DNA from: Methanobacteriota archaeon
Lineage (GTDB): Archaea; Thermoplasmatota; E2; DHVEG-1
Direction of reading: 5' to 3'
DNA: 64,000 bases
Assembly: GCA_903877165.1 (NCBI GenBank)
Contig: CAIRCU010000020.1
Span: 1 to 64,000 of the forward strand
The notes beneath the pieces were generated by a model. It made no database searches. It had not been told where the DNA came from and saw only the letters and a program-made list of their open reading frames with translations. Positions 43,697 to 63,894 of this stretch are shown here, one piece after another; the stretch's first letter is position 1; the number at the start of each line of letters is the position of its first letter. Made by a program: the position numbers and the translations under genes.

Positions 43697-46600
43697 ATGG
43701 TACAGTACGTAAGAGCAAAAGCCATCGTTATCATATTAAGCCTAATTTTCATCGGCACCGCGGTGATTCCCGCCGTGCAAGCACAGTTCTCAGAAGATCT
43801 GTCGGCACCGACATGGCAGGCGCAGCCTCTGACAGGGCCGCTCACCCCACTCGTAGAATCCACGGAATGGGCCCCCCACGGCGGCAACCCCATGCCGCTG
43901 ACGAGCACGCCTCTGGTCGTCCACCTCCCGACCACCCAGATCTCCATGATCCTGCATCTGAACCCCCCTGCATCGTACCTGAACACGACCTTATCCAACG
44001 TCCCTGCTGGCTATGACCCAAGCAGCCGATCCTACTACGGGTGGTGCGGGGACTACTTCCATTACATCCAACTCGGCGTCGTCTACCAGGCCACGCTGTA
44101 CTCCACCTACGACAACGCCCTCCCCAGCTACCTGTACCATCAGAACTGGAGCAAGGTCAACTACATCCTGAACCATAAAATCGGGACGGACTACCAGCAG
44201 ATCCAAAACGCGATCTGGTACCTGCTCGACTGCGGGAACCATGGATTAAACACGAACGGATGGGCCATGGTCAACAACGCCATCGCGAACGGCGGCGGCT
44301 ACATCCCCGGGTCAGGAGACAAATGCGCAGTCATCCTCGGCGTGAACCCAACCGTCCAACGCACCATCTTCGAACTCACCGTCCCCCCACGCATCATCAC
44401 CCTCAACTATGACGGCCAAGGCACTGTCGCCAAGAACCCGGACCTCACCGCGTACGTCTACGGCCAGACGGTGAACCTCACGGCCTCGGCGAACCCCGGT
44501 TGGACCTTCGACCACTGGAGCGGGGATGCGACGGGCTCGGCGAACCCCACGACCGTGACCATGACGGGGAACAAGACCGTGACCGCGGTCTTCACCCAGA
44601 ACCATTATACCCTGAGTACCGCCACAGACGGTTCCGGGACTGTAAACAGGGACCCTGATCAAAGCACCTATACCTACGGCCAGGTCGTCCATCTCACCGC
44701 CCAGGCGGACCTCGGCTGGACGTTTGACCACTGGAACGGGGATGCCACCGGAACCTCAAACCCCGTAGATGTCACCATCAACGGCAACAAGGCCGTGACC
44801 GCATATTTCACCCAGAACCATTACACCCTCAGTATCACAACCGATGGCTCAGGAACCGTAACCAAAGAGCCAGACCAGACGACGTACACCTACGGACAAG
44901 TCGTCACGCTGACCGCTCAGGCGGACCTCGGCTGGACATTTGACCATTGGACCGGTGATGCCATCGGCAGCAGCGCGACCGCCACCATCACCATGACAGG
45001 CGATAAGGCGGCGACCGCCTATTTCACCCAAGACCAATATACCCTCACTGTCTCCACAGATGGATCTGGATCGGTGATTCTTGACCCCGATCAAGCGACG
45101 TACACCTATGGGCAAATCATTCAGCTGACCGCTGAGGCGGACCTCGGCTGGACGTTTGACCACTGGAGCGGTGGTACTGCCAGTACGGCAAACCCTGCGA
45201 CAATCACCATTGTCGGGAACACCGCAGTGACTGCCCACTTCACCCAGAATCAGTACACTATCACTGTGACTCTCGACGGCTCAGGCAGTGTGATAAAGAA
45301 TCCTGACCAATCGACGTATACCTACGGCCAGGTCGTCCATCTCACCGCCCAGGCGGACCCCGGCTGGACATTTGATCACTGGAGTGGGGATGTCACCGGC
45401 AACGCCAACGCCGTCGACCTCACGATTCTAGGGAACGCGGCGGTCGGTGCACATTTCACGCAGAACCACTACACGCTCACCGTCTCTACGGATGGGTCGG
45501 GGAACGTGATGAAGAATCCTGATCAATCGACGTATACTTATGGCCAGGTCGTTCAGCTGACCGCCCAGGCGGCTGTCGGCTGGACGTTTGACCACTGGAG
45601 CGGGGATGCGACCGGTTCGGCGAATCCCACCACGGTCACGATGACGGGGAACAAAGCCGTCACCGCGCACTTCACCCAGAACCAGTACACCCTGACGATC
45701 ACGACGGACGGCTCGGGTTCCGTTCAGAAGAGCCCTGATCAAACCACGTACACGTACGGCCAGGTGGTGACGTTGACCGCGGTTCCCGCGCAAGGTTGGA
45801 GCTTCAGCTACTGGAGCGGGGACGCGACCGGGAGCACGAACCCGATTCAGATCACCATCGACGGCAACAAGGCCGTGGCCGCACATTTCACCCAGAACCA
45901 GTACACCCTCACCATTACTATCGATGGCTCGGGGAACGTGACGAAGAACCCGGATCAAAACACGTACACGTACGGGCAGGTCGTCACCCTGTCTGCCTTC
46001 CCGAGCGCCGGCTGGAGCTTTGACCACTGGAGCGGGGATGCGACCGGTTCGACGAACCCCACGACCGTGACTATCGCTGGGAACATGGCGGTCACCGCGC
46101 ACTTCACTCAGGATCAGTACACTCTCTCTCTTACCCTTGACGGTTCAGGCAGCGTCGCCAAAGACCCAGACCAGACGACGTACACCTACGGACAGGTCGT
46201 CACGCTGACGGCGACTGCGGCGCAAGGCTGGAGCTTCGATCACTGGAGCGGGGATGCGACCGGTTCGGCGAATCCCACCACGGTCACGATGACGGGGAAC
46301 AAAGCCGTCACCGCACACTTCACCCAGAACCAGTACACCCTGACGATCACCACACATGGGTCGGGAACGGTAGTGAAGGACCCGGACCAGGACACCTACA
46401 CCTACGGGCAGGTGGTTGGACTGACTGCGCAGCCCGCACAGGACTGGGTCTTTGACTATTGGACGGGCGATGTCACAGGGAGTGCTAACCCGACGTCAAT
46501 CACGATAACCGGCGATGCTGCGGTGACTGCGCATTTCACGGAGCAGGATCTGACTCCTCCATTGGTGAACATCACGCAACCCTCCAATGCCGTGTACTTG

Positions 46601-46975
46601 ATGGATAAACCGCTGTGCCCGTTTGTGATGCCGCTGTTCTTCCACAACATCACCGTCAAGGTGAACGCTTCGGACAACCAGTCAGGGATTGACCACGTGG
46701 TCATCTATGTTGATAACGTCAGCAAGGCCACCTTGACTACCCCGCCCTACCGCTGGGTATGGACTGAGACGAAACCCATGAAGCATACGCTGACGGCGGT
46801 CGCGTTCGACAAGGCGGGGAATCACGCCTCGGACTCTAAGATGGTGTGGCGGTGGCGGTTCCATCCGATCATCATCGGACTCTTCATGCTGAAGGCATTG
46901 TTCATGAATAAGCACAACGGCACGCCGGGCATGGAAGCAACAACGTCAGCAACAACATCCGCACCAACGTCATAA
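43697..46975 (+). CDS. surface protein: N-terminal thioester-like domain, ten InlB-type B-repeats, C-terminal Ig-like domain
   Basis: YGWCGDYFH...YQQIQNAIWYLLDCG; ten copies of [QH]YTL..xTDGSGxVxKxPDQxTYTYGQVVxLTAxxxxGWxFDHWSGDATGSxNPxxxTxxGNxAVTAHFTQ. Confidence 0.85.
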   Translation: MVQYVRAKAIVIILSLIFIGTAVIPAVQAQFSEDLSAPTWQAQPLTGPLTPLVESTEWAPHGGNPMPLTSTPLVVHLPTTQISMILHLNPPASYLNTTLSNVPAGYDPSSRSYYGWCGDYFHYIQLGVVYQATLYSTYDNALPSYLYHQNWSKVNYILNHKIGTDYQQIQNAIWYLLDCGNHGLNTNGWAMVNNAIANGGGYIPGSGDKCAVILGVNPTVQRTIFELTVPPRIITLNYDGQGTVAKNPDLTAYVYGQTVNLTASANPGWTFDHWSGDATGSANPTTVTMTGNKTVTAVFTQNHYTLSTATDGSGTVNRDPDQSTYTYGQVVHLTAQADLGWTFDHWNGDATGTSNPVDVTINGNKAVTAYFTQNHYTLSITTDGSGTVTKEPDQTTYTYGQVVTLTAQADLGWTFDHWTGDAIGSSATATITMTGDKAATAYFTQDQYTLTVSTDGSGSVILDPDQATYTYGQIIQLTAEADLGWTFDHWSGGTASTANPATITIVGNTAVTAHFTQNQYTITVTLDGSGSVIKNPDQSTYTYGQVVHLTAQADPGWTFDHWSGDVTGNANAVDLTILGNAAVGAHFTQNHYTLTVSTDGSGNVMKNPDQSTYTYGQVVQLTAQAAVGWTFDHWSGDATGSANPTTVTMTGNKAVTAHFTQNQYTLTITTDGSGSVQKSPDQTTYTYGQVVTLTAVPAQGWSFSYWSGDATGSTNPIQITIDGNKAVAAHFTQNQYTLTITIDGSGNVTKNPDQNTYTYGQVVTLSAFPSAGWSFDHWSGDATGSTNPTTVTIAGNMAVTAHFTQDQYTLSLTLDGSGSVAKDPDQTTYTYGQVVTLTATAAQGWSFDHWSGDATGSANPTTVTMTGNKAVTAHFTQNQYTLTITTHGSGTVVKDPDQDTYTYGQVVGLTAQPAQDWVFDYWTGDVTGSANPTSITITGDAAVTAHFTEQDLTPPLVNITQPSNAVYLMDKPLCPFVMPLFFHNITVKVNASDNQSGIDHVVIYVDNVSKATLTTPPYRWVWTETKPMKHTLTAVAFDKAGNHASDSKMVWRWRFHPIIIGLFMLKALFMNKHNGTPGMEATTSATTSAPTS

Positions 46976-47065: not shown

Positions 47066-48187
47066 ATGAGTTCGATGACTGTGCGGAGACAAATGAAGAC
47101 AGCTCCTCAAGAAAACACGGAGTTCAGATTCGCGTTAAACGACGCACTCCGTATCTTTTTCAAGGATGCGATAAAGGTCAGTGTACGGCATCCCTCGCAA
47201 GCGCTGTTCTTCTTGAAGACCTATCGGTGGCAGAAGCAGGCGGCGCGGACCCGTGAGACCTGGGAGCGGCAAGGAACTCACGTGCCTCCGATCATGATTT
47301 TTTCCATCACTCATCAATGCAACCTGAACTGCAAGGGATGCTATGAGAAGGCGATACGGCCGCCGTCGAAGAAGGAACTGACGGACCAGCAGCTAAGGAA
47401 AATCATCGACGAGGCGCATGAGCTGGGCATCTCGTTTATCGTCGTCGCGGGTGGAGAACCGTTCATGAGGCCTGCGTTCTTCGACATCACCAAAGAGTAC
47501 CCTGACATGATCTTCGTCATCTTCACCAACGGCTTGCTCATCAACGACCACATCCTTGAGTCGATAGCACAGCAAAAAAATATTGCTCCGTTAATCAGTC
47601 TGGAGGGATGCGAAGAGGAGACGGACGACCGACGGGGAAAAGGCATTTACACCAGGTTGCAGCACACCATGGAGAAGATCCAGGGGAAGCATGTCTTCTT
47701 TGGGACATCGCTGACGCTGACGGCACAGAACTTTGATACAATTTTGAACGAATCGTTCATCCAACATCTCGTTGACACCGGATGCAAGTTCTTCCTCTTT
47801 ATCGAGTACAACCCGATAAAACCGGGGACGGAACAATGGATGGTGACAGGCGACCAGAGAAAAAAATTGATGGAGACGTTGAAGGGATTTCGAGAACGAT
47901 GGCCTGCCCTCTTCATCGCGGTGCCTGGTGATGAGGACGAGATCGGTGGGTGTCTTGCGGCGGGACGAGGCTTCATCCACATTAGTGCTGAAGGCGATGT
48001 CGAGCCGTGCCCATTTGCTCCGTATTCAGACATGAATCTGAATACAGTGTCGTTGAAGGATGCGTTGAACTCCGCATTCCTGAGAAAGATCCGTGAGCAT
48101 CATGCGCAGCTCCATGGGACCGACGGCAGCTGCGGGTTATGGGCCAAACGTGAACTGGTTGAGGCGTTGCTGAAGGAGTCGAAATAA
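47066..48187 (+). CDS. radical SAM protein with SPASM/Twitch-like C-terminus
   Basis: SITHQCNLNCKGCYEKA; GGEPFMRP; C-terminal GCLAAG...VEPCPF...GSCGLW cysteines. Confidence 0.88.
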   Translation: MSSMTVRRQMKTAPQENTEFRFALNDALRIFFKDAIKVSVRHPSQALFFLKTYRWQKQAARTRETWERQGTHVPPIMIFSITHQCNLNCKGCYEKAIRPPSKKELTDQQLRKIIDEAHELGISFIVVAGGEPFMRPAFFDITKEYPDMIFVIFTNGLLINDHILESIAQQKNIAPLISLEGCEEETDDRRGKGIYTRLQHTMEKIQGKHVFFGTSLTLTAQNFDTILNESFIQHLVDTGCKFFLFIEYNPIKPGTEQWMVTGDQRKKLMETLKGFRERWPALFIAVPGDEDEIGGCLAAGRGFIHISAEGDVEPCPFAPYSDMNLNTVSLKDALNSAFLRKIREHHAQLHGTDGSCGLWAKRELVEALLKESK

Positions 48188-48228
48188 CCGTGGCTGGGGC
48201 TGTCGTCGAACCCTAACATTTTTTTTAC

Positions 48229-48350
48229 GGGCCTGGCGGGGGTTTATGCTGTGCCAGCGGGAGAAAACGATGGGTGATAACTACCCATTTTTCATAGTCA
48301 TCGTCTTGGCACGCTGAGACTCGTTATTCCTCTTTCTTTTTATCCTTTCT
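48229..48350 (+). repeat. tRNA-tail repeat copy A
   Basis: GGGCCTGGCGGG plus about 100-nt flank similar to copy B, ending in a pyrimidine/T-rich tract. Confidence 0.6.
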
Positions 48351-48673
48351 ACTAAACACTGAATCATAGTGTATCATAGGTTTGGTTTCATTCGATGATG
48401 TATCTTTATATCCGCTCTAGAAAAAGTATATATATGACGAATGACATATGTTTTCCCACAGATTTCCCACACGGGGGTCAATATGACACGAACAGGCCTC
48501 AATAATCCACAGCAGACGCTCCTCAATAATGACAACGTAGCGTCAGTGAGAATCATCACGATTACTCGTGATTGCCTTCATTATTGAACAGGCCGGTTTT
48601 TTCCCATCCTTTTCACCGTATGTTCGGAGATTCAACACGAAATGCGGTGGATATTATAAGGAGGAAGAACAAA

Positions 48674-49624
48674 ATGAATGAACGAAAAAAAACGCTAGTG
48701 GCATGTCTCGTCATGGTCGTCGTACTCATTGGTACACTGACGACTCTGATACCAACCACTCAAGCAGGGCTGATCTTCAACTTCCAGAGCGTCCTGAACA
48801 TCAAATGGGGAAATGAGACACAGCGACCATTGATCCCGCGAGGGGAACTCCGGTTCGTCACGATCATCATCACCCACACAGTCTCAAAAACAGCGCTGGG
48901 GAGCGGCGTCCTCTCCATCCTAACAGGGGCCCTTATCCCCATACACGTCGAAATCGTCGAAGCACCACCGTGGTGCACCGCGGCCATCCAACAAGGGACC
49001 CTGTCAGTCACGGTCCAACCCGGCGCTGTCTCAACTGTGGAAACGACATGCGCCATACAAGTCGACAACGATGCGCCCGCCTACAGCCTCGGAACAATAC
49101 GGATGCGGGCGACTGCAGACAGAACAAGCCTCATTGAAGGATATTCAAATGAATTCACCCTCAGCTTCACCCCCGCGTATAAATCGTTGATAGGCTTGTC
49201 TCTACCAGAAACGAACGTCAAAGAGCTTGGACCGAGTGAGACCGCGACGCTGCCCATCAACATCGAGAACCTCGGCAACGGCGGGACGGTCGTACAACTT
49301 CGCGTCACCCAGGTTCCCAAAGATTGGGTTGCCACAGTCACCTCCCAGGTTACCTTGGCGGAAGGCACTGGATCATCAGCGACTGCGTACCTCACCGTCA
49401 TTCCCCCAAAATCATTTGGGTACCACAACGAAGAACAAACCATCGAAGTCTCCCTGCAGCCGATGTTCGCAGATGACATGTCCCAAAAAGGAGTGATTTC
49501 CTACGAGTCCTTCCTCGTGCAAAGCAGAGGATTCTCCGCCCCCGGATTCGAGACAAGCATCTTCCTCGGTGCATTCGCCATGACACTACTGATTGTCGTC
49601 TACATCAGGAGGAGGAAAAAATAG
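48674..49624 (+). CDS. secreted protein with C-terminal PGF-CTERM-like sorting signal
   Basis: Signal peptide MNERKKTLVACLVMVVVLIGTLTTLIPTTQAG; C-terminus SAPGFETSIFLGAFAMTLLIVVYIRRRKK. Confidence 0.7.
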   Translation: MNERKKTLVACLVMVVVLIGTLTTLIPTTQAGLIFNFQSVLNIKWGNETQRPLIPRGELRFVTIIITHTVSKTALGSGVLSILTGALIPIHVEIVEAPPWCTAAIQQGTLSVTVQPGAVSTVETTCAIQVDNDAPAYSLGTIRMRATADRTSLIEGYSNEFTLSFTPAYKSLIGLSLPETNVKELGPSETATLPINIENLGNGGTVVQLRVTQVPKDWVATVTSQVTLAEGTGSSATAYLTVIPPKSFGYHNEEQTIEVSLQPMFADDMSQKGVISYESFLVQSRGFSAPGFETSIFLGAFAMTLLIVVYIRRRKK

Positions 49625-49737
49625 AGTGTATATAGATTACTCCGCGATATGCCCGCTCTAGGGATCTTCAAAAATAATCCCTCTCTTTTTCTTTTTTTTA
49701 CTGTTATCGATTAGTACAAACAGGAGAGCGAAGGAAT

Positions 49738-49858
49738 GGGCCCGGCGGGGCTTTAACCAATCCAACAGGTGAAATCGGGGGTCGATAACTACCCGATTGC
49801 GGTGGTTATCGCCTTGTCGCCTTGAAACTCACTATCTCTCTTTTTTTCTTTTTGTCCC
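49738..49858 (+). repeat. tRNA-tail repeat copy B
   Basis: GGGCCCGGCGGGG-CTTTAACC...CCAACAGGTGAAATCGGGGG...GATAACTACCCGATT..., T-rich end. Confidence 0.6.
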
Positions 49859-50065
49859 TTCAATTACACCATAGGACCACTAGTCAGATTCAGGAGGGAA
49901 TATAAGCATGGTTTTGCTATTAAACTGGTGAATATATAAGTGGAAGATTAAGCTTAGCGGCTTTAATAGACCGAATCTCCATGCGTTTAAATTTTTATTC
50001 TGTCCAAACATTTAAATGAATCAGCCTTATATTATTTTATCACAAGTTCAAGGAAGCATGATTTC

Positions 50066-51628
50066 ATGTTTAAAGATGTTTCTAAGAGAGGCGTGGTTGT
50101 TGGAATGCTTGTCCTGTGTCTCGGCGTTTGTATCACTCCGTGCATCAGCGGTGGTTTGAATCAACGTCCAACCCTTTCAACTGTTCATCCACAGATGCTT
50201 GGCGGGAGTCCTCCGAAGGAGGAATGGAATAAGACGTTTGGCTCTCCTCACCTCGATGATGCCGCCTATGATATACAACAGACCAACGATGGTGGATACA
50301 TCATCGGGGGATACGCGAGATCTTACGGTATCGCGTACTATAATCCATGGCTCATCAAGATCGACTCACAGGGGACCATGGAATGGAACAAGACGTTTGA
50401 TTATTATTCTCTCCCGACCAGGGCAGGACGGATATGGTCTGTCCAACAGACCTCGGACAACGGGTATATCCTTGGATGCACATTCGTCAACATGTCGAAG
50501 TCCAACCCTGACGGAGCTCAAAACTTACCTGAAACAAGCCGTGGTTTCATCAATTCTCTAGTGCTCATCAAAACCGATTCGCAAGGACATGAACAATGGA
50601 ACAGAACCTATGCTGGTCTGAACTACTCATGGTGCTACTGGGTCCGACAGACAAGCGACGGCGGCTACATCGTGACCGGCGGCGGGAACGCAAGCAGTGA
50701 CGGCTCACCCGACGTGTTCCTTCTGAAGACATCCTCTGATGGATCTCTTCAATGGTTGAAGATGTACGGAAGAAGTGACATGGATGAAGAAGGCCACATG
50801 GTCCAACAGACCTCCGATGGAGGCTACATCATCACCGGGATGTCGGATTGTAACTATGTGTCGGACTGGGGTAAAATGTGGTTGATTAAAACTGATGCGA
50901 GCGGTTCTCTCGTCTGGGAGAAGAAATTCCAGGCGACCGACAATCAAGTGAGTGTCGGACTGAAGAATTACGGCAATTCTGTGCAGCAGACCAGTGACGG
51001 CGGTTACATTATTGCCGGCATCATGAATTACGAGGGGTGTTTGTTGAAAACCGACGCAAACGGAAACGAGACATGGCGGAAAACCCCGTTTCTCAATGAC
51101 ATCTCGTTCTTCTGCTATGCCGCAACACAGACCACTGACGGCGGATACATAGCGACCGGCAACGGGCTCATCAAGACAGATAGTGTGGGAAACGAAGTGT
51201 GGAATATCACTATACCGACGCCGTTCACCACAGGACAGCAGACCAGTGACGGCGGTTACATTATCGCCGGGTCGAATAACGGATACTACAACGGCGATGT
51301 CTGGGTGATTAAATTCGGAAAAGAGCCGGAGATCCCTAAAATCTCATTCACAATCTCTGGCGGCCTAGGCATTCATGTGAAAATCTCCAACGACGGGACT
51401 GTGAATGCAACCAACACCACCTGGCAGGTCAACATTGAAGGCGGCATCCTTCACCGAATCAATAAAACCGTGCAGGGAACGGTCGATGTAGCTGTCGGTG
51501 ACACAAAGACAGTGACGACTGGAACACTCTTCGGCCTTGGCACCATCCATGTAACGGCAATCGTGGGTGATACAGACAAAGTTGTGGACGGTAAACAATT
51601 ACTCATCCTTTCCATCGTAAAACAATGA
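50066..51628 (+). CDS. secreted beta-propeller-like repeat protein with C-terminal GGLGV domain
   Basis: Seven [VR]QQTSDGGYIIxG-type repeats; C-terminus ISGGLGIHVKISNDGT... Confidence 0.7.
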   Translation: MFKDVSKRGVVVGMLVLCLGVCITPCISGGLNQRPTLSTVHPQMLGGSPPKEEWNKTFGSPHLDDAAYDIQQTNDGGYIIGGYARSYGIAYYNPWLIKIDSQGTMEWNKTFDYYSLPTRAGRIWSVQQTSDNGYILGCTFVNMSKSNPDGAQNLPETSRGFINSLVLIKTDSQGHEQWNRTYAGLNYSWCYWVRQTSDGGYIVTGGGNASSDGSPDVFLLKTSSDGSLQWLKMYGRSDMDEEGHMVQQTSDGGYIITGMSDCNYVSDWGKMWLIKTDASGSLVWEKKFQATDNQVSVGLKNYGNSVQQTSDGGYIIAGIMNYEGCLLKTDANGNETWRKTPFLNDISFFCYAATQTTDGGYIATGNGLIKTDSVGNEVWNITIPTPFTTGQQTSDGGYIIAGSNNGYYNGDVWVIKFGKEPEIPKISFTISGGLGIHVKISNDGTVNATNTTWQVNIEGGILHRINKTVQGTVDVAVGDTKTVTTGTLFGLGTIHVTAIVGDTDKVVDGKQLLILSIVKQ

Positions 51629-51695
51629 GGTAGTAAAAAAAAATCAGGAGTCTAATTTCATAAGAAAAACTAACTGTAGGAGTAAGGGAAGAATC

Positions 51696-53390
51696 ATGAA
51701 TCATACGAAGTATGCCAAAATCGTGATGCTGACTGCCGCCGCCCTATTCGCGATGACACTGCTCAATTCCGGGGCCCTATCACAGAACGCACAAAACCAA
51801 ACGCCGCCCCAGACACTTGACCCCAAGGAAGGCCACTTCCTCTACACCCCCTGGCATTCCAAGACCACCTATCTCATCAATGAAACCGGCGTCGTCAACC
51901 ACACCTGGCAGGGGGATTACTATCCCTTATATGATTCTTACGTGGATCATAACGGTTCTGTGTATCTCACTATCCAGTCCGGCCAAGGCGGCGTCCAAGT
52001 AATTGCCTACAACGGCACCACCCTCTGGAACTACCACTATACCCGAGACGCCGGCTACGCCACCCATGACCTCTCTATCCTCCCTAACGGTGACTTCCTC
52101 CTCATCATGCAAGAAGTCAAATCGGCCGCCCAAGCCATCCAAAAAGGACGCGACCCTGGCACTATCTGGTTTGGCAATTTCAACCCAAATTTTATTATCC
52201 AAGTCCATCAGACCGGACCAACCAGTGGGGACATCGTCTGGGAATGGCACGTCTGGGATCACATGATCCAAGACTTTGACGCCACCAAAGACAACTACGG
52301 CAACGTCAGCCAGCATCCTGAACTCGCCGACATCAACTGCGACTATTGGTGGAACGTCGGCTGGCCCTACATGAACTCCATCGATTACAACCCCCAGAAC
52401 GACCAAATCCTACTCAGTGCCCATAACTGTGACGAAATCTGGATTATAGATCACAGCACCACCACAGAAGAAGCCGCAAGCCACACTGGAGGAACATATG
52501 GCCACGGCGGCGATCTCCTCTACCGCTGGGGAAATCCGCAGGCATATGATCGAGGAACCGCTGCGGATGAGAAACTGTATCTCCAACACCAAGTCTGCTG
52601 GGTTAAACCCGGTCTTCCCCATGCAGGAAACATCCTCATCTTCTCCAACGGCAACAACCGACCGGGAGGATATCTTTCCAGTTGTGATGAGTTCACCCCT
52701 GCCATCAACAATGATACGGGAGAATACTATGAACCGCCAAGCGGGGAACCATACGGTCCTGCTAACCTTACTTGGCAGTTCATGCTGCCGCAAAACCTCT
52801 TTTCAGACGGCTTTGGCGGCGCCCAGCGGATGCTCAACAACAATACCCTCATCTGCTCCGGATGGAACGGGATTTTCATCGAGGTCACACCAGACAAACA
52901 GATCGTCTGGACCTTCGATGCAGGCGACCAAGTCTACCGCACCGAATATATCTTCTCGAATCAACCACCACCGCAGCCAAAACCAAAAGTGTACGTCACC
53001 GGTCGTCTTTCCTGGAGCGATGTCAAACCAGGCGCTACTGTCACAGGAACATTCCAGTTACAAAATTACGGGGGCGCGAGCTCCTCTCTTAACTGGACCA
53101 TTGACACATCCTCGCTTACCTGGGGGACGTGGACTGTTTCCCCGACATCAGGAAAAAATCTGACACCTGATGATGGATCGGTGACCATTAATGTCACCTG
53201 CATTGCACCGACGGATAAGAATAAACAATTCCGAGGCTCCATGAAAGTCATCGATACGGATAATGCTTCAGACAATGCTAGTGTCCCTATCATCCTGACG
53301 ACACCGTATATGCCACCCCGTTTCTTCCCCCGATTCTGGCAATGGATCGCCTACTTCTTTGACATAATGCAACAGTTCCATCAAAGATAG
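51696..53390 (+). CDS. secreted arylsulfotransferase (ASST)-like protein
   Basis: TYLINETGVVNHTW...; GYATHDLSILPNGDFLLI...; MNSIDYNPQNDQILLSAHNCDEIWIIDH; GGAQRMLNNNTLICSGWNGIFIEVTPDKQIVW. Confidence 0.75.
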   Translation: MNHTKYAKIVMLTAAALFAMTLLNSGALSQNAQNQTPPQTLDPKEGHFLYTPWHSKTTYLINETGVVNHTWQGDYYPLYDSYVDHNGSVYLTIQSGQGGVQVIAYNGTTLWNYHYTRDAGYATHDLSILPNGDFLLIMQEVKSAAQAIQKGRDPGTIWFGNFNPNFIIQVHQTGPTSGDIVWEWHVWDHMIQDFDATKDNYGNVSQHPELADINCDYWWNVGWPYMNSIDYNPQNDQILLSAHNCDEIWIIDHSTTTEEAASHTGGTYGHGGDLLYRWGNPQAYDRGTAADEKLYLQHQVCWVKPGLPHAGNILIFSNGNNRPGGYLSSCDEFTPAINNDTGEYYEPPSGEPYGPANLTWQFMLPQNLFSDGFGGAQRMLNNNTLICSGWNGIFIEVTPDKQIVWTFDAGDQVYRTEYIFSNQPPPQPKPKVYVTGRLSWSDVKPGATVTGTFQLQNYGGASSSLNWTIDTSSLTWGTWTVSPTSGKNLTPDDGSVTINVTCIAPTDKNKQFRGSMKVIDTDNASDNASVPIILTTPYMPPRFFPRFWQWIAYFFDIMQQFHQR

Positions 53391-53522
53391 GATGACTCCT
53401 CAGTTGCCGCAATATACGGAATGGTTTCCTCTTCGGTCAAACCTATAGGACGGCTGAATCCTGCCAAGGTAAAAAAGACTCGAATACTAGATTATTAGAG
53501 TCTACAGGGATGTGAATGAAAC

Positions 53523-53664
53523 GGGCCTGGCGGGAGTCGAACAACCCAACAGGAGAAAAACGGGGCGAAAAACCGCGAAAAAAACCGCTTTGGAATCCAC
53601 AGGTGAACGGGACTATCGATTCTATTCTCACTAAAAGCCTTCTCCACCTTTCTTTCCTTTTTCA
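53523..53664 (+). repeat. tRNA-tail repeat copy C, candidate left attachment site
   Basis: AACGGGCCTGGCGGGA-G-TCGAAC matches the tRNA-Arg 3' end on the plus strand at 22/23 positions; downstream CCAACAGGAGAAAAACGGGG as in copy B. Confidence 0.6.
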
Positions 53665-54091: not shown

Positions 54092-57000
54092 TTACAGTCC
54101 GCTTACGGTGAACTGATATGAAGACACCAGTTGTTTCAAATCCGACCCGACTAAGATGTTGCCGTCGGGGTCGCGGAACGCTGCATAGATGCGATACATC
54201 CCATTCCCATTCTTCAGGTCGTTTCTCTTGATTTTGCCGTTGAAAACGGTGTCAAGGCCGAACTGGTGACTGGCGGTGATCGTCCTGGGCGTCGTCTCAT
54301 GTACGGTATCATTATCAACAATCCAACCGGTTCCAGATTTATAGAACTGCACCTGGATGAGCAGGTAACCTTTGATGTCGGTCGATCCCGTGTTGTTGAT
54401 CTTCGACTGATTGTTGAACAGGATGGTCAGCTTTGGGGTATATTGTCGGTCCGCGTTCCCGGAATAAACTTTGACGTATTCATGGGTGGTTGGTGTCGTC
54501 CCGCTGATGTCGCGGTTGCTGCGTAGGCAGAGTTTTGTCTCTCCGCGTTTCTGCAGCCAGCTATAGTTCGTCAAGGTGATGGTATTATAGCCGGTCCCAA
54601 AACCTGTGGTATTGAGTCCGCCGCCGTTCCCGGAGTAGTGGCTTTTGCCGTAGTCGGCGGTCTGTAGCGGGTCATGGGGGTAGGTCGGCTGGCCGTTCTG
54701 CACCGTGATGGTGAAGTCCGTGGACGAGTTGTCGCTGTATTTGTAGAGGGAGAGGGTGGCGCTGGTGATGTTCGCGTTGTTCGGCAGTGTCGTGGTGTTG
54801 AATAGCAGCATCCCGCGGTAGATATTGTATGTTGGTGGAACTCCGGATGTTTTATCTTGGCCGATGAACAGAGATGTCGCCGTGCTGGAGATGGTTCCTG
54901 AGAGTGCGGTCCATGCGGTGTTGTAGGTTGTACTGGAGCTGTAAATGTATCCATCATTGGTCAGTGAATAGACGGTGATGGTAGGGTCGATGACGATCGG
55001 GAACGTCATGGTAGTGAGTGCTGAGAACGGGAGGCCGGAGAGGAGGTAGGTGTCGCCATTCAGGTGGATGATGCGGTAGACCAGCGGCATCGTCGCGGAG
55101 GTGTTTCCTTGTTCGTAGGCGGTGCCGATGGGGAGTGCGCAGGCGAAGTGGTTGAGGGCGTCTTTGAATTCTATGCCTTGGGTGATGGTGATGTTTCCAG
55201 TGATCGGGTCTTGGCCGTCGTATGAGGTGAGGCCGAGGCTATCGATCTTCGTGGCGAATACGAGGTACGTGTTGTTGCTGAGGCCGTACTGTGAGGGCGG
55301 GTGGCTCTGGAGCAGTGCTTTGGTGGTGTTGCTGAGGGTGATGGCTTCCTTCAACTGCATGTTCTCGTAGGTGTAGGTGACGTTGGTGCCTGTGAAGATG
55401 CCTGGGTAGGTTGCGGTGTTGTTGGTGAATAGTCCTTGGCTGCTTTGTGTGGTTTGGAGGGTGTGGGTGGACCAGCTCGTAGGATCGATGTAGCCGACGC
55501 CTGTGAGTTGGGTGCGGACGACTGTGGTGGGGTCAGTGGATCTGTTGTAGGCGAAGGCGATGGGCCAGGTGCTCTGGATGTTGGGTTTGAAGTAGGCGGC
55601 GTAGGGGCCATGGTCGTTGCCTGCGTAGTACCCGTGTGCGTACGCAAGGCTGTCTTGTGGGAGCAAGGTGAGGGTGGTGTTGATTGGCTGCCAGTCGTTG
55701 GGTGTTGGTTGGTAGTTCACCTGTTCAGGGTAGGAGTCGAGGACGGTACTCCCTGTTGTAGGGTCGTGGAATGTGTTCCATGTTGCTCCTCGATTGATGA
55801 GGGTGTAGTTGTCTGGTGGTGCGGGTGGGTCGGTGAGGTTGATGTATTCGTTGCTGGTGTAGCTGTTCTTGAGGGTATAGACGGCAAGGGTGGCGGTGAC
55901 GGAGACGTTGAAGCTGTGTTTGGATGTTGTGCGTTCGTTGCCTGTGGTGTCGACCGCGGTGATGGTATAGTTGTATCGTCCGGTGAGCCAGGTGTCGTTG
56001 AAGACGCATCGATACGAGTTCGATGATCCACTCACTGCGTTCATGGTGATGTTCATTCCCTCGGCGGTCTGCCATTGTGTCGGCTTCCAGATCTCAGCTT
56101 TCGCATACTCTACATTAGTGGCGTTATCCATGATTGTTGCCTGGATGGTGACATTGTGGCCAAAGCCTAATACTGACGGAGATGCGGAAATCGAGGTGAT
56201 TACCGGTCCGGTGGTATCAATCGTCACGTGGCGTGTTTCGGTGCTGCTGTGATTCCCGGTGGTGTCGATGGCCTGGGCATTATAGGAGTATGTGCCTTCG
56301 GTAAGTCCGGTGAAGTTGTGGGCTAGGTTGTAGTGGCTGTTGTCGTAGGCGGCTTTGATTTCTTCCAGGCTGAGGGCTCTGGTGTAGAGCTGTGGCTCAT
56401 CCAGTAGTCCGTCGAAATGCGACCAGCTTGCATGGTTTTCGTAGGAGAACGAGGTGTTCTGGGTGTTGGTGACGTTGCGGATAGTTCCGGCGATCCCGTG
56501 GTCGAAGGCGCCGTCGACGTAAAGGGAGAGGTTGGTGCCTGTTCTGACGTAGGCGAGGTGGTGCCAGGCGTTGTTTGTTGTCTCTCGTGTGCCGTTGACG
56601 CAGGTGACTTGACCGGCTGCGCTCATGGTGTAGAGTCGTGCGCCGGTGGAAGTGACGCCCATGAAGTAACCTTTGTTGCCGGCTTCGGGCTTGTTGCTGA
56701 GGATGATTGAGACGTTTGAGTAGGTGTTTTGGTGGCTTTTCTCCCAGACCATGAAGGTGAAGTCGCTGGTGCCGAGGTTCAGGCTGGTGTTTTTACCAAG
56801 GTCGACGTAGTCGTCGGTGCCGTCGAAGTCGAGGGCTTTGCCGAATTTCCCGGCGACGATATTGCTGGGTCCGAGGCCGTTGTGGAATCGTCCGAAGCTA
56901 TCATAGGTGGAGTTGTCGGTGACGCCGGTGGTGTTGTAGGCTTCCATGGGCCAGTAGCCTTTGAGGTTGCGGTTCCAGTCGATAAAACCTACGGTTCCTC

Positions 57001-60000
57001 GGGTGTCTTGTATTGTGGTGTTCACGGTGACCCAGTTGTGGTTGAGGACGGAGTTGTTTTGTGGGGTGAACGGGGTGGTGAAGATAATGGTCGGGGTGGG
57101 GACGACTTGGAAGGTGAAACCTGGGAGAATGTTTGTATTGTTGGCGTTGTCGACGATCCAAATGGTGTAGTTGTATTGTCCTGGCTGCCAGGTGTTGTTG
57201 AAGGTGTAATTATAGTCGTACGGTGTGCTGTAGTTGGCCTGCATCGTGTAGTTGTAGGACTGGTTATTGGGATTGGTGATGTTTACGCGGACTGTCTTGA
57301 CGCCGCTTTGGTTATCAAAGAAGTTGGCGCTGATGGTCACAGGGAAACCACAGGGAATCGGGTTTGGGCTTGACTCAACGTCAACGAACCCAGGTATGAT
57401 TGATTCGACGTAAACGGTGTGGTTATAGGTGTTGACGTTGTTTTGGTTGTCGTGTGTCGTGAGCGTTACGTTATAGATGCCTGTGGCGTTGAAGGTGTGA
57501 TTGGCGTTTTGTTCGTATGAGTAGTTACCGTCGTGGAAATTCCAGGTCCAGTTCACTATCGGGTAGGCTCCTTGTGAGAGGTCATGGAAGTACGCGGTCT
57601 GTCCTGGTTGTGGGTTCCCGGTGATGTTGAAGTTGGATCGGAGGATGATGACGGAGATGTTCTGGGTGGTGTTGTAGGTGTTTCCTGCGCCGTTGCGGAT
57701 GGTGAGGTTGACTTTGAAGGTGCCAAGGTGGCTATAGGTGTGTTGGATGTTTTGGTTGTAGGATACAGTGCCGTCGCCGAAATGCCAGGTCCAGTTCAGA
57801 AGTCCGTTTGATTGTGAGGCTCCGCCTATTCCTGCGTTAAATCCTGGGCAGGATGCTGGTTGGCTTTCAGTGATGGTCGTGGAGGCGAATTGGCCTTGGA
57901 AGAGGCTATCCCATGAGGAGACCAATCCGTTGTCTTTCTGGGTGGCAGTGATATTGAGGGGTGGTGACCAGTCGGTGGCGTTGAGGCTGTAGGGGTTGTC
58001 TTTGGCGCGTACTTGTATTTGGTAGGTTCCGGGGAACATCCAGCGGATTTTTTGGGTGCAGGTTTGTCCTGACGGGTGGGGTCCTCCGGTGATCCATCGG
58101 GTGTAGTAGTAGACTCCGAGGCTGGTGTTCCATCGCCATTGGTACCAGATGGGGTTTCCATTGGGGTCGGTGGTGTTTGTTGTATAGTTATAATCTTTGC
58201 CGCTGTATATGGTGGTGTTGCCTGTCGGTCTTCGTGGTGTGGCAGGGGGATTGTTGGGTGGATGGAGAGTAATTTCTCCTGATTGATAGGAGTCGTTTGA
58301 ATATTGTCCATGATCGAGGATCCCAGGCAAGTATACTTCTTTTCTATAACAATAGCCGCTTGAATTGTAGAGGTAGACTGTGAGGTTGTAGAGTCCCGCG
58401 GGTGCGTAGGGTGGTAGTGTGTCAGTGATGTTATCTGTTGTCCCTACGGAGGTGACGGTAGTGTTTTTCTCCGAGGTATATCGGCAGAGGATTGGATAGT
58501 CTTTTGAGGTCAGAATTGCTTTGAGATGGCTGCGGTCTTGTTTGACAGAGGTTTTGATAGTGTAGGTAGCGTTCATGGAGTCATTCCATGTATTGGTTGA
58601 TTTCCAAGGCTTGGAGCTGATATTGGTAAACAGACTATTAGGAAATCTACCAATCGCCAAGATTCCGTATCGTTTGTAATACCACAAGTTACTTAATGGA
58701 AATACTATTCGGTATTCGCCGTTTTCTTTAAGAATTGTGTAGTCACCTACGGCATAACTTATGTTACGGTAGGAACAAATTGGAATCTTAAATATTGGAG
58801 TATTGTTATGGCTCAGATTTAACGCGAGGACATATTTTTCAGAATCGGCATATAACGTCTTCTCGTGGTATGCTGTAATAAGCATGATTGGATTGGCCGG
58901 AGTACCACAAATCGTCATATCTGAAGATGGAACAAATTTTATAGTATTGTTATATTTATCTTTCTTATTCATAGTGCTTGTTATGTTAATTTCTTCTATT
59001 TCAAATCCATTGTCCTCTCGAAAACGGAATAATTTATCGTCACCGGTCTTTCTATGGTTAGGATACACCAAATTACTATCTTCATACCAGAAGCCTCCTC
59101 GTGGATCCCTAGTAAAAGTAAACCAGGTTATGTTACCTGTATAGTTACTGAAATTCCTTGTCCATTTCGGTGTCCCATTTGTATATACAGCATAGATATG
59201 TGGATCTCTGAGGTCTGCAAAATGGGAAGTATTGTATCCATCAAAATATATGGTATCATTTATCAAAGTGGGACTTGCTTGGCTTTCGCCCCAGTACGTG
59301 TAATTCCAGTACTCGGTCAGATTAACCTTATTGTCAGCCGCTGGAGTAACATTAATCGCATAGATCCTTCCAACAACCCTATTAACAGGCAACGTATCCG
59401 GTTTTTTATATTCAGTTAAAATAAAAAATGTATTATTTTTAACACAGATGGAGTTGATTCCTGAAAAATATCCGCTTCCAGTACTTAGACTATCTGTTAT
59501 AATGGAGTTCGACGCGATAATAGAATCCGTAGGATCCCCATTTGTATTATTGCATTGAAATTCAGTGACATTATTTCTTTTCACGACAAAATCTACTTTT
59601 CCGTAGTCTGCTGAATTCGTAGTAAAATTACAATTTTGATATTGGCGTGGAAAAACCCCATATGGAACCGTTGAGTTCCATTCAATTTTTTGGCTTGTGC
59701 TGTTATATCGAAACAGGCAGATAGAGTAAATAAAATAGTTTCCTACTACTTTTATAAAGTCCCCTAGGGTCATTTCAGGAACGCAGTAGTAAGGGTCGAT
59801 GGTTGTATTTTCTCCAAGAAAGATCTCACCTGTTAAATTTCCTGTCTTAACGTCATAGGCAAGAACCGGGCCATCAGCGCAGGGTAAAATGATTGTTTTA
59901 TTTTCTACGATACATGGACTAAAGGGAGTTGGTCCCAGTTTTCTTAATTTAAACTGGCTTATTGGTATTGAATTATGCCATACCACATGGATATTGCTTT

Positions 60001-60493
60001 CATTAGAAGCATTTACTAAAATTATTGTCTCATTATCGCAAGCGACAACTTGGCTGTTGTTGTCAATCATTGGTGAAGAAAATGCTGCCGCGGCGTTTAA
60101 ATACTGAGTATCTGACCATAATCTGTCGCCGTAATAATTGTATAAAATGAGATTATTGTATCCATAGGGAAAATGTTTTGGGAAAAAATAATGAAGAAAA
60201 TCTTCAACGTTGTTAAATGAACAGGCAGCGATTTTACCATTTCCCACGATCCCGTTACCATTGGTGCCCCATGATGCTCCCTTGCCACCGCAACCCCAAA
60301 CAATGCTCTCATTGGATGTTGGGCCGGGCAGCCGAATATTTTCCGTTGTTTGAGGATCTTGATGAATAACTCCACCGCCCCACGGTGGAAGATTAAAATC
60401 CCCTGAACTAAGAGGCTGGAAGATTATCGAAATCAAAAGAATTTCTATAACGATGCAAGAAATTTTTTTCAAATCCTCTTTTCTAATTTTCAT
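54092..60493 (-). CDS. giant secreted surface protein (PQQ-like propeller N-term, PKD, LamG-like, DNRLRE-like domains)
   Basis: Signal peptide; NWTWHFGDGTVSYNQNIQHTYSHLGTFKVNLTI (PKD); KALDFDGTDDYVDLGKNTSLNLGTSDFTFMVWEK (LamG); C-terminal DNRLRE-type region. Confidence 0.85.
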   Translation of the reverse strand: MKIRKEDLKKISCIVIEILLISIIFQPLSSGDFNLPPWGGGVIHQDPQTTENIRLPGPTSNESIVWGCGGKGASWGTNGNGIVGNGKIAACSFNNVEDFLHYFFPKHFPYGYNNLILYNYYGDRLWSDTQYLNAAAAFSSPMIDNNSQVVACDNETIILVNASNESNIHVVWHNSIPISQFKLRKLGPTPFSPCIVENKTIILPCADGPVLAYDVKTGNLTGEIFLGENTTIDPYYCVPEMTLGDFIKVVGNYFIYSICLFRYNSTSQKIEWNSTVPYGVFPRQYQNCNFTTNSADYGKVDFVVKRNNVTEFQCNNTNGDPTDSIIASNSIITDSLSTGSGYFSGINSICVKNNTFFILTEYKKPDTLPVNRVVGRIYAINVTPAADNKVNLTEYWNYTYWGESQASPTLINDTIYFDGYNTSHFADLRDPHIYAVYTNGTPKWTRNFSNYTGNITWFTFTRDPRGGFWYEDSNLVYPNHRKTGDDKLFRFREDNGFEIEEINITSTMNKKDKYNNTIKFVPSSDMTICGTPANPIMLITAYHEKTLYADSEKYVLALNLSHNNTPIFKIPICSYRNISYAVGDYTILKENGEYRIVFPLSNLWYYKRYGILAIGRFPNSLFTNISSKPWKSTNTWNDSMNATYTIKTSVKQDRSHLKAILTSKDYPILCRYTSEKNTTVTSVGTTDNITDTLPPYAPAGLYNLTVYLYNSSGYCYRKEVYLPGILDHGQYSNDSYQSGEITLHPPNNPPATPRRPTGNTTIYSGKDYNYTTNTTDPNGNPIWYQWRWNTSLGVYYYTRWITGGPHPSGQTCTQKIRWMFPGTYQIQVRAKDNPYSLNATDWSPPLNITATQKDNGLVSSWDSLFQGQFASTTITESQPASCPGFNAGIGGASQSNGLLNWTWHFGDGTVSYNQNIQHTYSHLGTFKVNLTIRNGAGNTYNTTQNISVIILRSNFNITGNPQPGQTAYFHDLSQGAYPIVNWTWNFHDGNYSYEQNANHTFNATGIYNVTLTTHDNQNNVNTYNHTVYVESIIPGFVDVESSPNPIPCGFPVTISANFFDNQSGVKTVRVNITNPNNQSYNYTMQANYSTPYDYNYTFNNTWQPGQYNYTIWIVDNANNTNILPGFTFQVVPTPTIIFTTPFTPQNNSVLNHNWVTVNTTIQDTRGTVGFIDWNRNLKGYWPMEAYNTTGVTDNSTYDSFGRFHNGLGPSNIVAGKFGKALDFDGTDDYVDLGKNTSLNLGTSDFTFMVWEKSHQNTYSNVSIILSNKPEAGNKGYFMGVTSTGARLYTMSAAGQVTCVNGTRETTNNAWHHLAYVRTGTNLSLYVDGAFDHGIAGTIRNVTNTQNTSFSYENHASWSHFDGLLDEPQLYTRALSLEEIKAAYDNSHYNLAHNFTGLTEGTYSYNAQAIDTTGNHSSTETRHVTIDTTGPVITSISASPSVLGFGHNVTIQATIMDNATNVEYAKAEIWKPTQWQTAEGMNITMNAVSGSSNSYRCVFNDTWLTGRYNYTITAVDTTGNERTTSKHSFNVSVTATLAVYTLKNSYTSNEYINLTDPPAPPDNYTLINRGATWNTFHDPTTGSTVLDSYPEQVNYQPTPNDWQPINTTLTLLPQDSLAYAHGYYAGNDHGPYAAYFKPNIQSTWPIAFAYNRSTDPTTVVRTQLTGVGYIDPTSWSTHTLQTTQSSQGLFTNNTATYPGIFTGTNVTYTYENMQLKEAITLSNTTKALLQSHPPSQYGLSNNTYLVFATKIDSLGLTSYDGQDPITGNITITQGIEFKDALNHFACALPIGTAYEQGNTSATMPLVYRIIHLNGDTYLLSGLPFSALTTMTFPIVIDPTITVYSLTNDGYIYSSSTTYNTAWTALSGTISSTATSLFIGQDKTSGVPPTYNIYRGMLLFNTTTLPNNANITSATLSLYKYSDNSSTDFTITVQNGQPTYPHDPLQTADYGKSHYSGNGGGLNTTGFGTGYNTITLTNYSWLQKRGETKLCLRSNRDISGTTPTTHEYVKVYSGNADRQYTPKLTILFNNQSKINNTGSTDIKGYLLIQVQFYKSGTGWIVDNDTVHETTPRTITASHQFGLDTVFNGKIKRNDLKNGNGMYRIYAAFRDPDGNILVGSDLKQLVSSYQFTVSGL

Positions 60494-60712: not shown

Positions 60713-60834
60713 ATTAATGTTCCTTCTAATGTAATAGCAGCGTCATGACCGATAAATTTTAATAAGTAATAATATATTAAAGAATACGACAATTTCCATT
60801 TCCCATGCTCTATATTGGGTTTGAAGGGATGATC

Positions 60835-61830
60835 ATGAAAGCGAGATGGTTAACAGTTGGACTATTTTTGATTCTTGTTATTACCTGTCTGGGTCCTGTT
60901 ATTGCCCAAAATATTGAAAAACAACCGAGATCAACCTTAGGAGGCAAATGGTGGTACGTCGGCGGCACAGGACCAGGGAACTATACTATCATCCAGAACG
61001 CTGTAGATAACGCTAGTAATGGAGACACCGTCTTTGTCTACCATGGGACGTATAATCAAAAACCAGGCTCTTTAGAATGTGTCTGGGTTTATAAGTCAAT
61101 TTCTCTCATTGGTGAAGACAAGAACATCACAATCATTAGGGGAAACCAGGTAGGCGATGTTATCCGAGAACTCGCTGGCGATGTGACCATCACCGGATTC
61201 ACCCTTGAGAACGCTGGCACTGGGACTACTTCAGGCTTAGCCCTTGACATCTACAAATCTAACGGCATGGGAACCATCAGCAATATCTCAATCCACGACA
61301 ACATCATTGCCAATAATGAAAATGCCATGTGCATGTTCGATTGTAATAATGCATCCTGCTTCAATAACATCTTCCTGAATAATAGCTATAATTTAATTAT
61401 TTCACGAAGTATATATTGCTCAATAAATCACAACCTTTTCTATAAGGGAGGGGGCGTGAATATATATCTCGAGGATTACCCTAATTTCATTAATTTTACT
61501 GGCAATGAATTCAGAAATACCTATTACGGACTCGTAATCCAAACCAGTATGGGAGTCTTGATTCATGCCAATAACTTCATTAACAATACCAGCCCAGCAC
61601 GGTTCAACAAAGAAATAGGCTTTTTAGGGCTCCTCCATAATGCGCCTCTCTACAAGCAACAATGGAGTCAAAACTACTGGAGCGACTGGAACTCGACCAA
61701 CCCCCGACCAATCCCAGGCACCCTATATATCCTATTCGGTGGCATCTTTGGCCTTGAATATCGACTTCCCGTTCCGGTGCGGGAATACGACCCAGACCCA
61801 GTCCAAAACCCTTACAACTACTTTCCATAA
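60835..61830 (+). CDS. secreted right-handed parallel beta-helix (NosD-like) protein
   Basis: Signal peptide; GPGNYTIIQNAVDNASNGDTVFVYHGTYNQ; NNIIANNENAMCMFDCNNASCFNNIFLNNSYNLIIS. Confidence 0.8.
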   Translation: MKARWLTVGLFLILVITCLGPVIAQNIEKQPRSTLGGKWWYVGGTGPGNYTIIQNAVDNASNGDTVFVYHGTYNQKPGSLECVWVYKSISLIGEDKNITIIRGNQVGDVIRELAGDVTITGFTLENAGTGTTSGLALDIYKSNGMGTISNISIHDNIIANNENAMCMFDCNNASCFNNIFLNNSYNLIISRSIYCSINHNLFYKGGGVNIYLEDYPNFINFTGNEFRNTYYGLVIQTSMGVLIHANNFINNTSPARFNKEIGFLGLLHNAPLYKQQWSQNYWSDWNSTNPRPIPGTLYILFGGIFGLEYRLPVPVREYDPDPVQNPYNYFP

Positions 61831-61887: not shown

Positions 61888-62250
61888 TTAGTTGGTTTTT
61901 GTTAGGGGCGAGGTATGCGAAATTACTTCCTCCATCACTTGAAGATCAAATTTAAGCTTCGATTGATAATGATTAAAGAGAACATTAGGTAAGGTGAGGT
62001 AAGGAATGCCTTCAGTGCAGCATATATCTAGTATTTTTTGAATCAATTTTTGATAATGTGGATTTGCTTTTTCTTCATCTGATACTAGTATAGGGTGCCC
62101 GCCATCGTTTTGAACCTCAATGCAATAGGCTACTAAGTATAAATCAGCCCATCTTTGCAAGTATTTTTGCCTCTCCTGAATCACCTGAGTTTCAATGGGA
62201 AAATAGATCCTTTGATTCTCTGGTATTATATGCTCATCAATAAGCCGATC
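61888..62250 (-). pseudogene. truncated PIN-domain (DUF4411-like) toxin remnant
   Basis: FPVVDRLIDEHIIPENQ...RWADLYLVAYCIEVQNDGGHPILVSDEEKANPHYQKLIQKILDICCTEGIPYLTLPNVL. Frame continues upstream of the listed Met and is cut by TAG with no start codon. Confidence 0.5.
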
Positions 62251-62341: not shown

Positions 62342-63745
62342 ATGGAAGATGACCACCAGAGTGCTACGAGCACCCTGGTGGCCTGGAGCCATGATAATAT
62401 GAGTATCACAGCCCCGTGGATGATACAAGAAGAAAGCTCTATTAAACATTATTCAACCCACAAACACACTCAGACCACCATCTCTTCATTCTCTCACCTA
62501 TCAGACTCCTACAAAGCCAAACCAACGAATGGTTTAGCAGGAGGTAGACACCAAGAATGGAAACCAACGATACCCAACCCAGGCAAGCATACTATCGACT
62601 TTCTACAACCACCGAGCATTACTATGGAGGACTACATCGATTTAATCCTCAAGAAAGTCAATAGAATCGATTTCCCCATCATACTTGACCCCACCAAGGC
62701 ATCCTTCGACGACGTCGCCATCCACGCAATCCTTCGGCAAAGGATGAAGAAAACCACAGTCGCCAAACGCATCACCTACGCCCGCTACATGGAAAAACAT
62801 CACGCCCCCGTAGATTTCAGACACCCAACCTACGAGAACTTCATCCGACATATGGACTACCGCGAACAAATCGAAAACGCAGGATTCGGTGCCCTCGGAC
62901 ATGAATGGAAGACCATGCGCATGTTCCTCCGCGCCTACGGCCTCTCGAAATGGGACTACCGACCACCCTCAGCGCCCTACTACAAGGTTAAGGTAATACC
63001 CTTCCCTGAACAAATCTCCGAGATCCTACGCCTCACCTACTCCGAGGATGAGTACGAAAACGCCCTCATCCAGTACATCCTCACCCACAATTTCATCATC
63101 GGATGGAGAATCCCCAGCGAACCCTCAATTATGAAACTCAGTGACGTAACGATAGACGACCATGACCGGGGTTTCATTAAGATTACGGAGCCAAAGAAGA
63201 TGAATTCCACGAGAATCGTGACGCCGGTTGAGATTATGACGAACCATCGTCGTAAATCGTTCAAGAACTGGATTGACAGCTGGCGACCAAAGGTGGCAAA
63301 CCAATACTCCAAGGACTTTCTCTACCTCAAGCATGATGGAACCCCGTTCTGCAAGGAGTCGCTTCGAATGTTCCTCAACAGGAAAGCTTCGCCTATAATC
63401 CAGACTGTAATCCCGAAGTATCACAACTATGTCGCACGGGATTTCTGTGCTATAGCCCGCCTTATCCGGACTAAGATCCAGACAGGAAGCTTTGATGAAT
63501 TCGAAGTCAAGGAATGGCTCGGGCACACCAAGATCCAAACCACAATGTGCTACATTAAGGACGCAAGCCACTACTACAAACTTGCACCTTACGATTGGAT
63601 TAACCGCGTCCTCAAAGCTGCCTCGATAAACAGCGAGGAAAACGCGGAAATTCGAAAAGGCGAAAAAGTAGGTGCTTTCGACCCAAATCCCTCCGAGAAG
63701 AGGGAACGGGCCTGGCGGGATTCGAACCCGCGGCCTACAGCTTAG
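62342..63745 (+). CDS. tyrosine recombinase/integrase, C-terminus read through antisense of tRNA-Arg
   Basis: GWRIPSEPSIMKLSDV; HNYVARDFCAIARL (HxxR-type); WLGHTKIQTTMCYI; ends RERAWRDSNPRPTA. Confidence 0.8.
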   Translation: MEDDHQSATSTLVAWSHDNMSITAPWMIQEESSIKHYSTHKHTQTTISSFSHLSDSYKAKPTNGLAGGRHQEWKPTIPNPGKHTIDFLQPPSITMEDYIDLILKKVNRIDFPIILDPTKASFDDVAIHAILRQRMKKTTVAKRITYARYMEKHHAPVDFRHPTYENFIRHMDYREQIENAGFGALGHEWKTMRMFLRAYGLSKWDYRPPSAPYYKVKVIPFPEQISEILRLTYSEDEYENALIQYILTHNFIIGWRIPSEPSIMKLSDVTIDDHDRGFIKITEPKKMNSTRIVTPVEIMTNHRRKSFKNWIDSWRPKVANQYSKDFLYLKHDGTPFCKESLRMFLNRKASPIIQTVIPKYHNYVARDFCAIARLIRTKIQTGSFDEFEVKEWLGHTKIQTTMCYIKDASHYYKLAPYDWINRVLKAASINSEENAEIRKGEKVGAFDPNPSEKRERAWRDSNPRPTA

Positions 63746-63781
63746 GAGGCTGTCGCCCTATCCAGTCTAGGCTACAGGCCC
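63707..63781 (-). tRNA. tRNA-Arg (CCU anticodon)
   Basis: Cloverleaf read by eye: GGGCCTG/CAGGCCC acceptor, GCCT/GGGC D-stem, ACAGC-CTCCTAA-GCTGT anticodon arm, GCGGG-TTCGAAT-CCCGC T-arm; CCA not encoded. Confidence 0.93.
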
Positions 63782-63894
63782 ATGCGCGTCACTGACAACA
63801 GGAACGAGTTTTTTATAGCTTGGGAACTGGGAAGCGCTGCATGGTCTTTCGCTGGAAAAAACCTGAGTACATCGTTTTTTGTCGTCACGGGTCG

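Follow-up and report, generated by a model that had tools for sequence, protein, structure and literature searches.

The window, by which we mean the whole 64,000-nt stretch of DNA analysed, comes from a draft metagenome-assembled genome of 1.98 Mb. It carries a tRNA-Arg(CCU) gene, a tyrosine integrase gene whose frame runs into that tRNA, and three copies (A, B and C) of the image of the tRNA 3' end, each of which is a short core followed by a related flank that we call the left arm. The genes between the copies encode exported or surface proteins. The features are as follows.

47066-48187, plus strand: radical-SAM protein gene, just outside A
48227-48240, plus strand: core of copy A, identical to the tRNA 3' end at 14/14 nt; without a right arm on its left
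48241-48345, plus strand: left arm of copy A, the most diverged (34.6 bits)
48674-49624, plus strand: cargo of the A-B unit, an exported protein with a C-terminal sorting signal (choice-of-anchor T / Heimdall-CTERM-like)
49715-49735, plus strand: right arm belonging to the A-B unit, adjoining core B on its left, AAACAGGAGAGCGAAGGA
49736-49750, plus strand: core of copy B, two mismatches to the tRNA
49751-49860, plus strand: left arm of copy B, with the inverted repeat CGATAACTACC/GGTGGTTATCG
50066-51628, plus strand: cargo of the B-C unit, an exported beta-propeller repeat protein (weak, repeat-level matches)
51696-53390, plus strand: cargo of the B-C unit, an exported arylsulfotransferase-like protein (PF05935, 8e-11)
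53502-53520, plus strand: possible right arm belonging to the B-C unit, adjoining core C on its left, CTACAGGGATGTGAATGA; under the motif threshold used
53521-53542, plus strand: core of copy C, tRNA-Arg 3' end over 22 nt with one mismatch (21/22); putative left attachment site of the integrase-bearing element
53543-53664, plus strand: left arm of copy C, CCAACAGGAGAAAA ... TCTCACTAAAA, with a pyrimidine-rich tract; E 3.7e-14 in its own genome
53670-54056, plus strand: 128-aa PD-(D/E)XK nuclease-like protein, immediately after left arm C (fold comparison weak)
54092-60493, minus strand: cargo of the C-tRNA unit, a 2133-aa exported protein with PKD, laminin-G-like and Ig-like domains
60805-61830, plus strand: cargo of the C-tRNA unit, an exported NosD-like beta-helix protein
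62342-63745, plus strand: tyrosine integrase gene; the frame passes through the core into the antisense tRNA
63673-63705, plus strand: right arm in the integrase-to-core interval, TTTCGACC..CCTCCGAGAAGAGGGA, conserved at integrase-adjacent tRNAs
63706-63782, minus strand: tRNA-Arg(CCU), the proposed integration target, in which the 3' end at 63706-63727 forms the intact attR core

Two other reading frames were seen in the window. A short one at 61888-62184 on the minus strand matches only the C-terminal third of DUF4411 and is likely a remnant, and another at 43697-46975, outside the stack, encodes a 1092-aa exported protein of repeated ~75-aa units.

The copies had been placed by the earlier note at 48229 (A), 49738 (B) and 53523 (C), in the same direction as the tRNA 3'-end image, and both coordinates and orientation were borne out. 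The 12-mer with which all three were said to begin, GGGCCYGGCGGG, is indeed the image of the tRNA-Arg 3' end, and four of its five exact occurrences across the 1.98-Mb genome are A, B, C and the tRNA. The alignment of A with B, put at about 115 nt, was recovered over 110 nt at 69% identity (E 9e-6 in a search of the whole genome), and no further A- or B-like copies were found by sequence search of the 1.98-Mb genome. Each copy consists of 14-22 nt that mirror the tRNA-Arg(CCU) 3' end and an element arm of ~110 nt, laid out as AACAGG(A/T)GAAA ... CTCACTAAAA and then T-rich. The proposal that the copies are scars decaying with age was borne out in part. Left-arm scores are lower the farther a copy lies from the tRNA (C 58.6, B 48.0 and A 34.6 bits), yet the core of A is better kept than that of B, despite A lying farther from the tRNA, so simple ageing by distance holds incompletely; other arrays show both trends.

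Two models had been offered for the copies: successive integrations at one tRNA, or a tRNA-tail-derived family of structured RNAs or 3'-UTR elements. An RNA family would be expected to conserve the tRNA-like half, whereas at attachment sites this half would change with the target, which makes the core the key test. We scanned 44 genomes of the host family with an arm-only pattern that left the core out (AACAGGWGARA N36-64 CTMACTAAAA). Seven matches were found, against none for the reversed control; six were preceded at fixed spacing by a clear tRNA 3' end, representing five different tRNAs, and the seventh, in the relative G034, by a partial one. A sequence model of the arm, also built without the core, detected matches in 38 of the 44 family genomes at E<=0.01, and at E<=1e-4 in 28 host-family genomes and five others of the same order, with none in the other Thermoplasmatota sampled. 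A tRNA 3' end stood in fixed register at 19 of the 27 strong arm matches outside the training set, compared with 1 of about 380 control windows. The sequence ahead of the arm follows the targeted tRNA (Arg, Val, Pro, Met, Gln, Asn or Lys), and for units with their far-end tRNA on the same contig, permuted pairs agreed as well as core and own tRNA in 0 of 5000 cases. The earlier note had suggested asking whether matches in relatives adjoin tRNAs or integrases, and they do: tRNA 3' ends lie in register, and an integrase family lies beside the tRNAs.

Folding gave the RNA model some support. The hairpin described in A and B, with its compensating changes, is present and folds better than shuffled sequences (z = -3.2 for B and -2.1 for A), T-rich tracts follow the copies, and most arms contain some inverted repeat. 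In contrast, the hairpin is not kept as conserved pairs family-wide: RNAalifold identified none in 15 aligned arms, and the folding tendency of the arm family is weak (mean z -0.65 versus 0.02 for control stretches). An Rfam search of the window and region returned no family apart from tRNA, the tRNA-like half varies across the family with the local tRNA target, and the arm family co-occurs with an integrase. Since the core tracks the target tRNA and not the family, the attachment-site model is well supported and the RNA model is not, and we consider a structured RNA or 3'-UTR family to be highly improbable.

The arm recurs behind various tRNA 3' ends, which agree in each case with the tRNA at the opposite end of the unit, and is linked to one integrase family, as expected for the first model. 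Based on these results, we conclude with a probability of roughly 0.9 that three related elements entered the tRNA-Arg(CCU) 3' end successively and that A, B and C are their left attachment sites (attL or tandem junctions). Short direct repeats can also come from slippage or illegitimate recombination, and the repeats might in principle be duplications of the tRNA 3' end made without an integrase. Such events would not account for the fixed spacing from core to AACAGG, for a conserved 110-nt arm on one constant side, or for an integrase adjoining the tRNA at many loci, and we give this explanation next to no chance.

The product of 62342-63745 is a tyrosine recombinase (Phage_integrase, E 3e-4; XerC/XerD-type matches weak). 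Its catalytic residues R256, K285, R366, H395 and Y404 are invariant among 15 relatives, and the catalytic domain is complete upstream of the core, with just the last codons falling inside it. An SSV-type suicidal integrase was considered and rejected, since the att site does not split the gene. Relatives of the integrase were found in 31 of 45 host-family genomes, nearly all abutting a tRNA (Arg, Val, Pro, Asn, Met, Glu or Gln), and in the integrase tree the enzymes group partly by target tRNA. Outside the host order, only two weak relatives were found among the Thermoplasmatota sampled. The named relatives come from Thermoplasmata metagenome genomes such as B44_G15 and bin14, and the host family is probably Marine Benthic Group D (Thermoprofundales). 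Searches of viral contigs, phages and plasmids turned up no relative of the integrase, and hence no virus or plasmid vehicle.

The order of an element is tRNA core, left arm, cargo, integrase where present, right arm and tRNA. The right arm was recognised by the motifs CTCCGAGAG, TCTCCTGTT or AACAGGAGA about 20 nt from the core, and AACAGGAGA is a candidate arm-type binding site for the integrase. A right-arm motif was present at 16/16 integrase-adjacent ends, 7/15 integrase-less ends and 22/52 left flanks of cores, with 12% in random windows. The eight of 15 integrase-less ends at which no right arm was recognised count against the attachment-site reading, as does the figure for core flanks.

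In the window, the integrase-bearing unit from C to the tRNA spans 10.2 kb (53.5-63.7 kb), and the integrase-less B-C (3.8 kb) and A-B (1.5 kb) units are stacked outward from it. Both arms are present in the A-B unit, the left one at A and the right one at B; in the B-C unit the right arm, at C, is only weak. Integrase-bearing units with a left end and a matching tRNA include, besides the 10.2-kb element, one at tRNA-Val in the same genome (7.5 kb) and those of G013 (9.8 kb), G017 (9.5 kb), G029 (3.7 kb) and, with a shortened integrase, G038 (3.8 kb). The tRNA-Val(TAC) element, on contig C35 (L094: 8250-15866), belongs to the same family and encodes a 1372-aa exported protein and the same nuclease-like gene, here of 124 aa, behind its left arm. 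Integrase-less units with a matching tRNA were found in G030 (0.8 kb), G038 (1.35 kb), G022 (1.5 and 2.2 kb) and G016 (1.9 kb), and overall such units in relatives cover 0.8-6 kb with one to few genes. Units without an integrase are the majority, and arrays are widespread in the host family, both of which go beyond the earlier note.

Arrays of integrase-less units occur in G015, G017 and G036, the longest of which, in G036, has seven left ends over 18 kb. This seven-unit array lies at tRNA-Arg(CCT) on contig C48 (14617-32993; L139-L141), where no integrase was found on the contig, and carries C25, M14, caspase-like and transglutaminase-like proteins. Elsewhere (L101:1146-9159), an array of tRNA-Pro(CGG) cores has a truncated piece of tRNA-Pro as its right end, with an intact tRNA-Arg(CCT) 0.3 kb away, and may be nested or relocated.

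On the 5' side of tRNA-Arg(CCT), about ten genomes of different genera share the same genes, whereas the 3' side is shared only within one genus and otherwise varies between genomes; repeated insertion at a tRNA 3' end leaves such a pattern. The sequence itself shows the cores with their change from tRNA to tRNA, the arms and their spacing, the linked integrase family, the arrays and the one-sided hotspot. In the mechanism that we propose, the tyrosine integrase would recombine the tRNA 3' end with a circular element whose core lies between right and left arm. The tRNA would be restored by the core that comes in, and the tRNA end that it displaces would be left on the opposite side of the element, behind its left arm. 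With every further insertion at the restored tRNA, older units would come to lie farther out, so that the order reads tRNA, integrase, element (10.2 kb), C, unit (3.8 kb), B, unit (1.5 kb), A and older DNA. Both the recombination itself and the order of insertions are predicted from the arrangement of the copies, and integrase-less units may be movable by an integrase from a neighbour or another element.

The cargo of relatives includes toxin-antitoxin pairs (VapBC, ParE-like and AbiE), peptidases of families C25, M14, C14 and C39, DNA methylase, ZIP transporter, sulfotransferase and radical-SAM protein. Peptidases of families C25, M14 and C14 have been reported for Thermoprofundales genomes as well (PMC6461988). 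Homologues of the 128-aa nuclease-like protein occupy the same position in three other integrase-bearing elements; Pfam and fold comparison of this protein gave weak nuclease matches only. Directly behind the left arm in two other elements (L087:4773-5630 and, in G034, L082:9926-10759) lies a gene for a ~280-aa protein with a P-loop-like GGMGTGKTS motif, and the one of the two tested had no Pfam match. A methylase-plus-partner pair, a candidate restriction-modification cargo, is found at tRNA-Met in two genera, with and without an integrase (L097:10325-12277 and L151:4133-6136). The radical-SAM gene left of A has homologues in few genomes (71-76% identity), which lie inside a unit at tRNA-Arg(CCT) in G031 and beside element arms or cores in G034 and G043. 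Because it is sparse and found in or beside units elsewhere, we rejected the view that it is an ancestral neighbour of the tRNA in the host.

Present-day mobility of the integrase-less units is a separate matter. The units could be internal-deletion derivatives of full elements that were stacked long ago and are now immobile, a reading that is compatible with attachment sites and competes only with the view that the units are still mobile. G022, which is 95% complete, holds two units and no integrase match, so some units may be fossils; G034 and G030 are likewise unit-bearing genomes without any integrase match. Furthermore, some cores and arms have decayed (G031 and G036), and the methylase pair at tRNA-Met is shared by G022, without an integrase, and G029, with one. 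In contrast, the G016 Pro, G030 Pro and G022 Met units lack a recombinase gene and retain both attachment ends, with near-perfect cores and both arms; the cargo is discrete, at one to three genes; and related cargo (radical SAM, Lrp-like regulator) reappears in different units and genera. On balance we give the dead-derivative reading slightly less than an even chance. A more ambitious proposal, which we put forward tentatively and consider rather unlikely, is an integron-like archaeal cassette system at tRNA genes, in which a lineage-specific tyrosine integrase acting in trans would capture, stack and shuffle short integrase-less cassettes whose arms and tRNA-end cores match.

The closest parallel to the attachment-site arrays is provided by the ssrA islands of Dehalococcoides, which follow one RNA gene in tandem and each terminate in a repeat of its 3' end with a conserved flank; 15 of 31 lack the integration module, niche genes are carried as cargo, and the integrase frame crosses the attachment site into the RNA gene or the neighbouring island (PMC3146451). 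Both systems share tandem stacking, many integrase-less units and an integrase frame across the attachment site. The ssrA islands are bacterial and depend on a serine-type (Ccr-like) recombinase acting at a single tmRNA gene, whereas the present elements use a tyrosine integrase family at many tRNA genes in archaea, with units down to 0.8 kb. Similarly, cis-mobilizable elements (CIMEs) are attachment-site-flanked units without a recombinase beside a recombinase-bearing element. As a difference from CIMEs, no conjugative or transfer genes were recognised in the present units, which may or may not be mobilizable. CIMEs and accretion are cited for ssrA islands (PMC3146451) and streptococcal ICEs.

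The element has the hallmarks of a classical tyrosine-integrase tRNA element, namely a far-end repeat of the tRNA 3'-end core and an intact R-K-R-H-Y integrase. Classical (non-suicidal) archaeal elements (PMC8371274; Thaumarchaeota, PMC6563490) likewise keep the integrase intact after integration, target tRNA 3' ends and have short att cores, and arrays through site re-use are already known for archaeal elements (PMC6563490). A conserved left-arm family with long arrays of integrase-less one- to few-gene units is not mentioned in the sections of these papers that were consulted (PMC8371274, PMC6563490). In archaeal integrons and CALINs (PMC9668308), too, short gene units alternate with recombination sites in arrays, which often lack an integrase. 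Integron attC sites were considered and rejected here, as there are no conserved pairs, the core follows the tRNA and the window has no Rfam match; the sites are tRNA ends with arms, and growth would occur at the tRNA. By its matches, which are weak and of XerC/XerD type, the integrase is probably not IntI-like. Tycheposons are tRNA-anchored cargo elements with tyrosine recombinases. The present elements share these features, and differ in that no replication or packaging genes were recognised here; the name is from PMC11389934. No description of the present family was found in the literature searched, mostly papers outside subscription, and the novelty of this archaeal element family is provisional.

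Together, the results provide an archaeal counterpart to the tRNA-anchored stacking of recombinase-less islands seen at bacterial ssrA, with a different recombinase class and many targets. The left-arm model offers a handle for locating all such units in the order, and for seeking their circles in existing metagenome reads. If the integron-like proposal is true, such a cassette system would supply exported peptidases, surface proteins and toxin-antitoxin pairs. Overall, our results indicate how an uncultured archaeal lineage acquires and varies genes for exported and surface proteins, as small stacked units beside tRNA genes.
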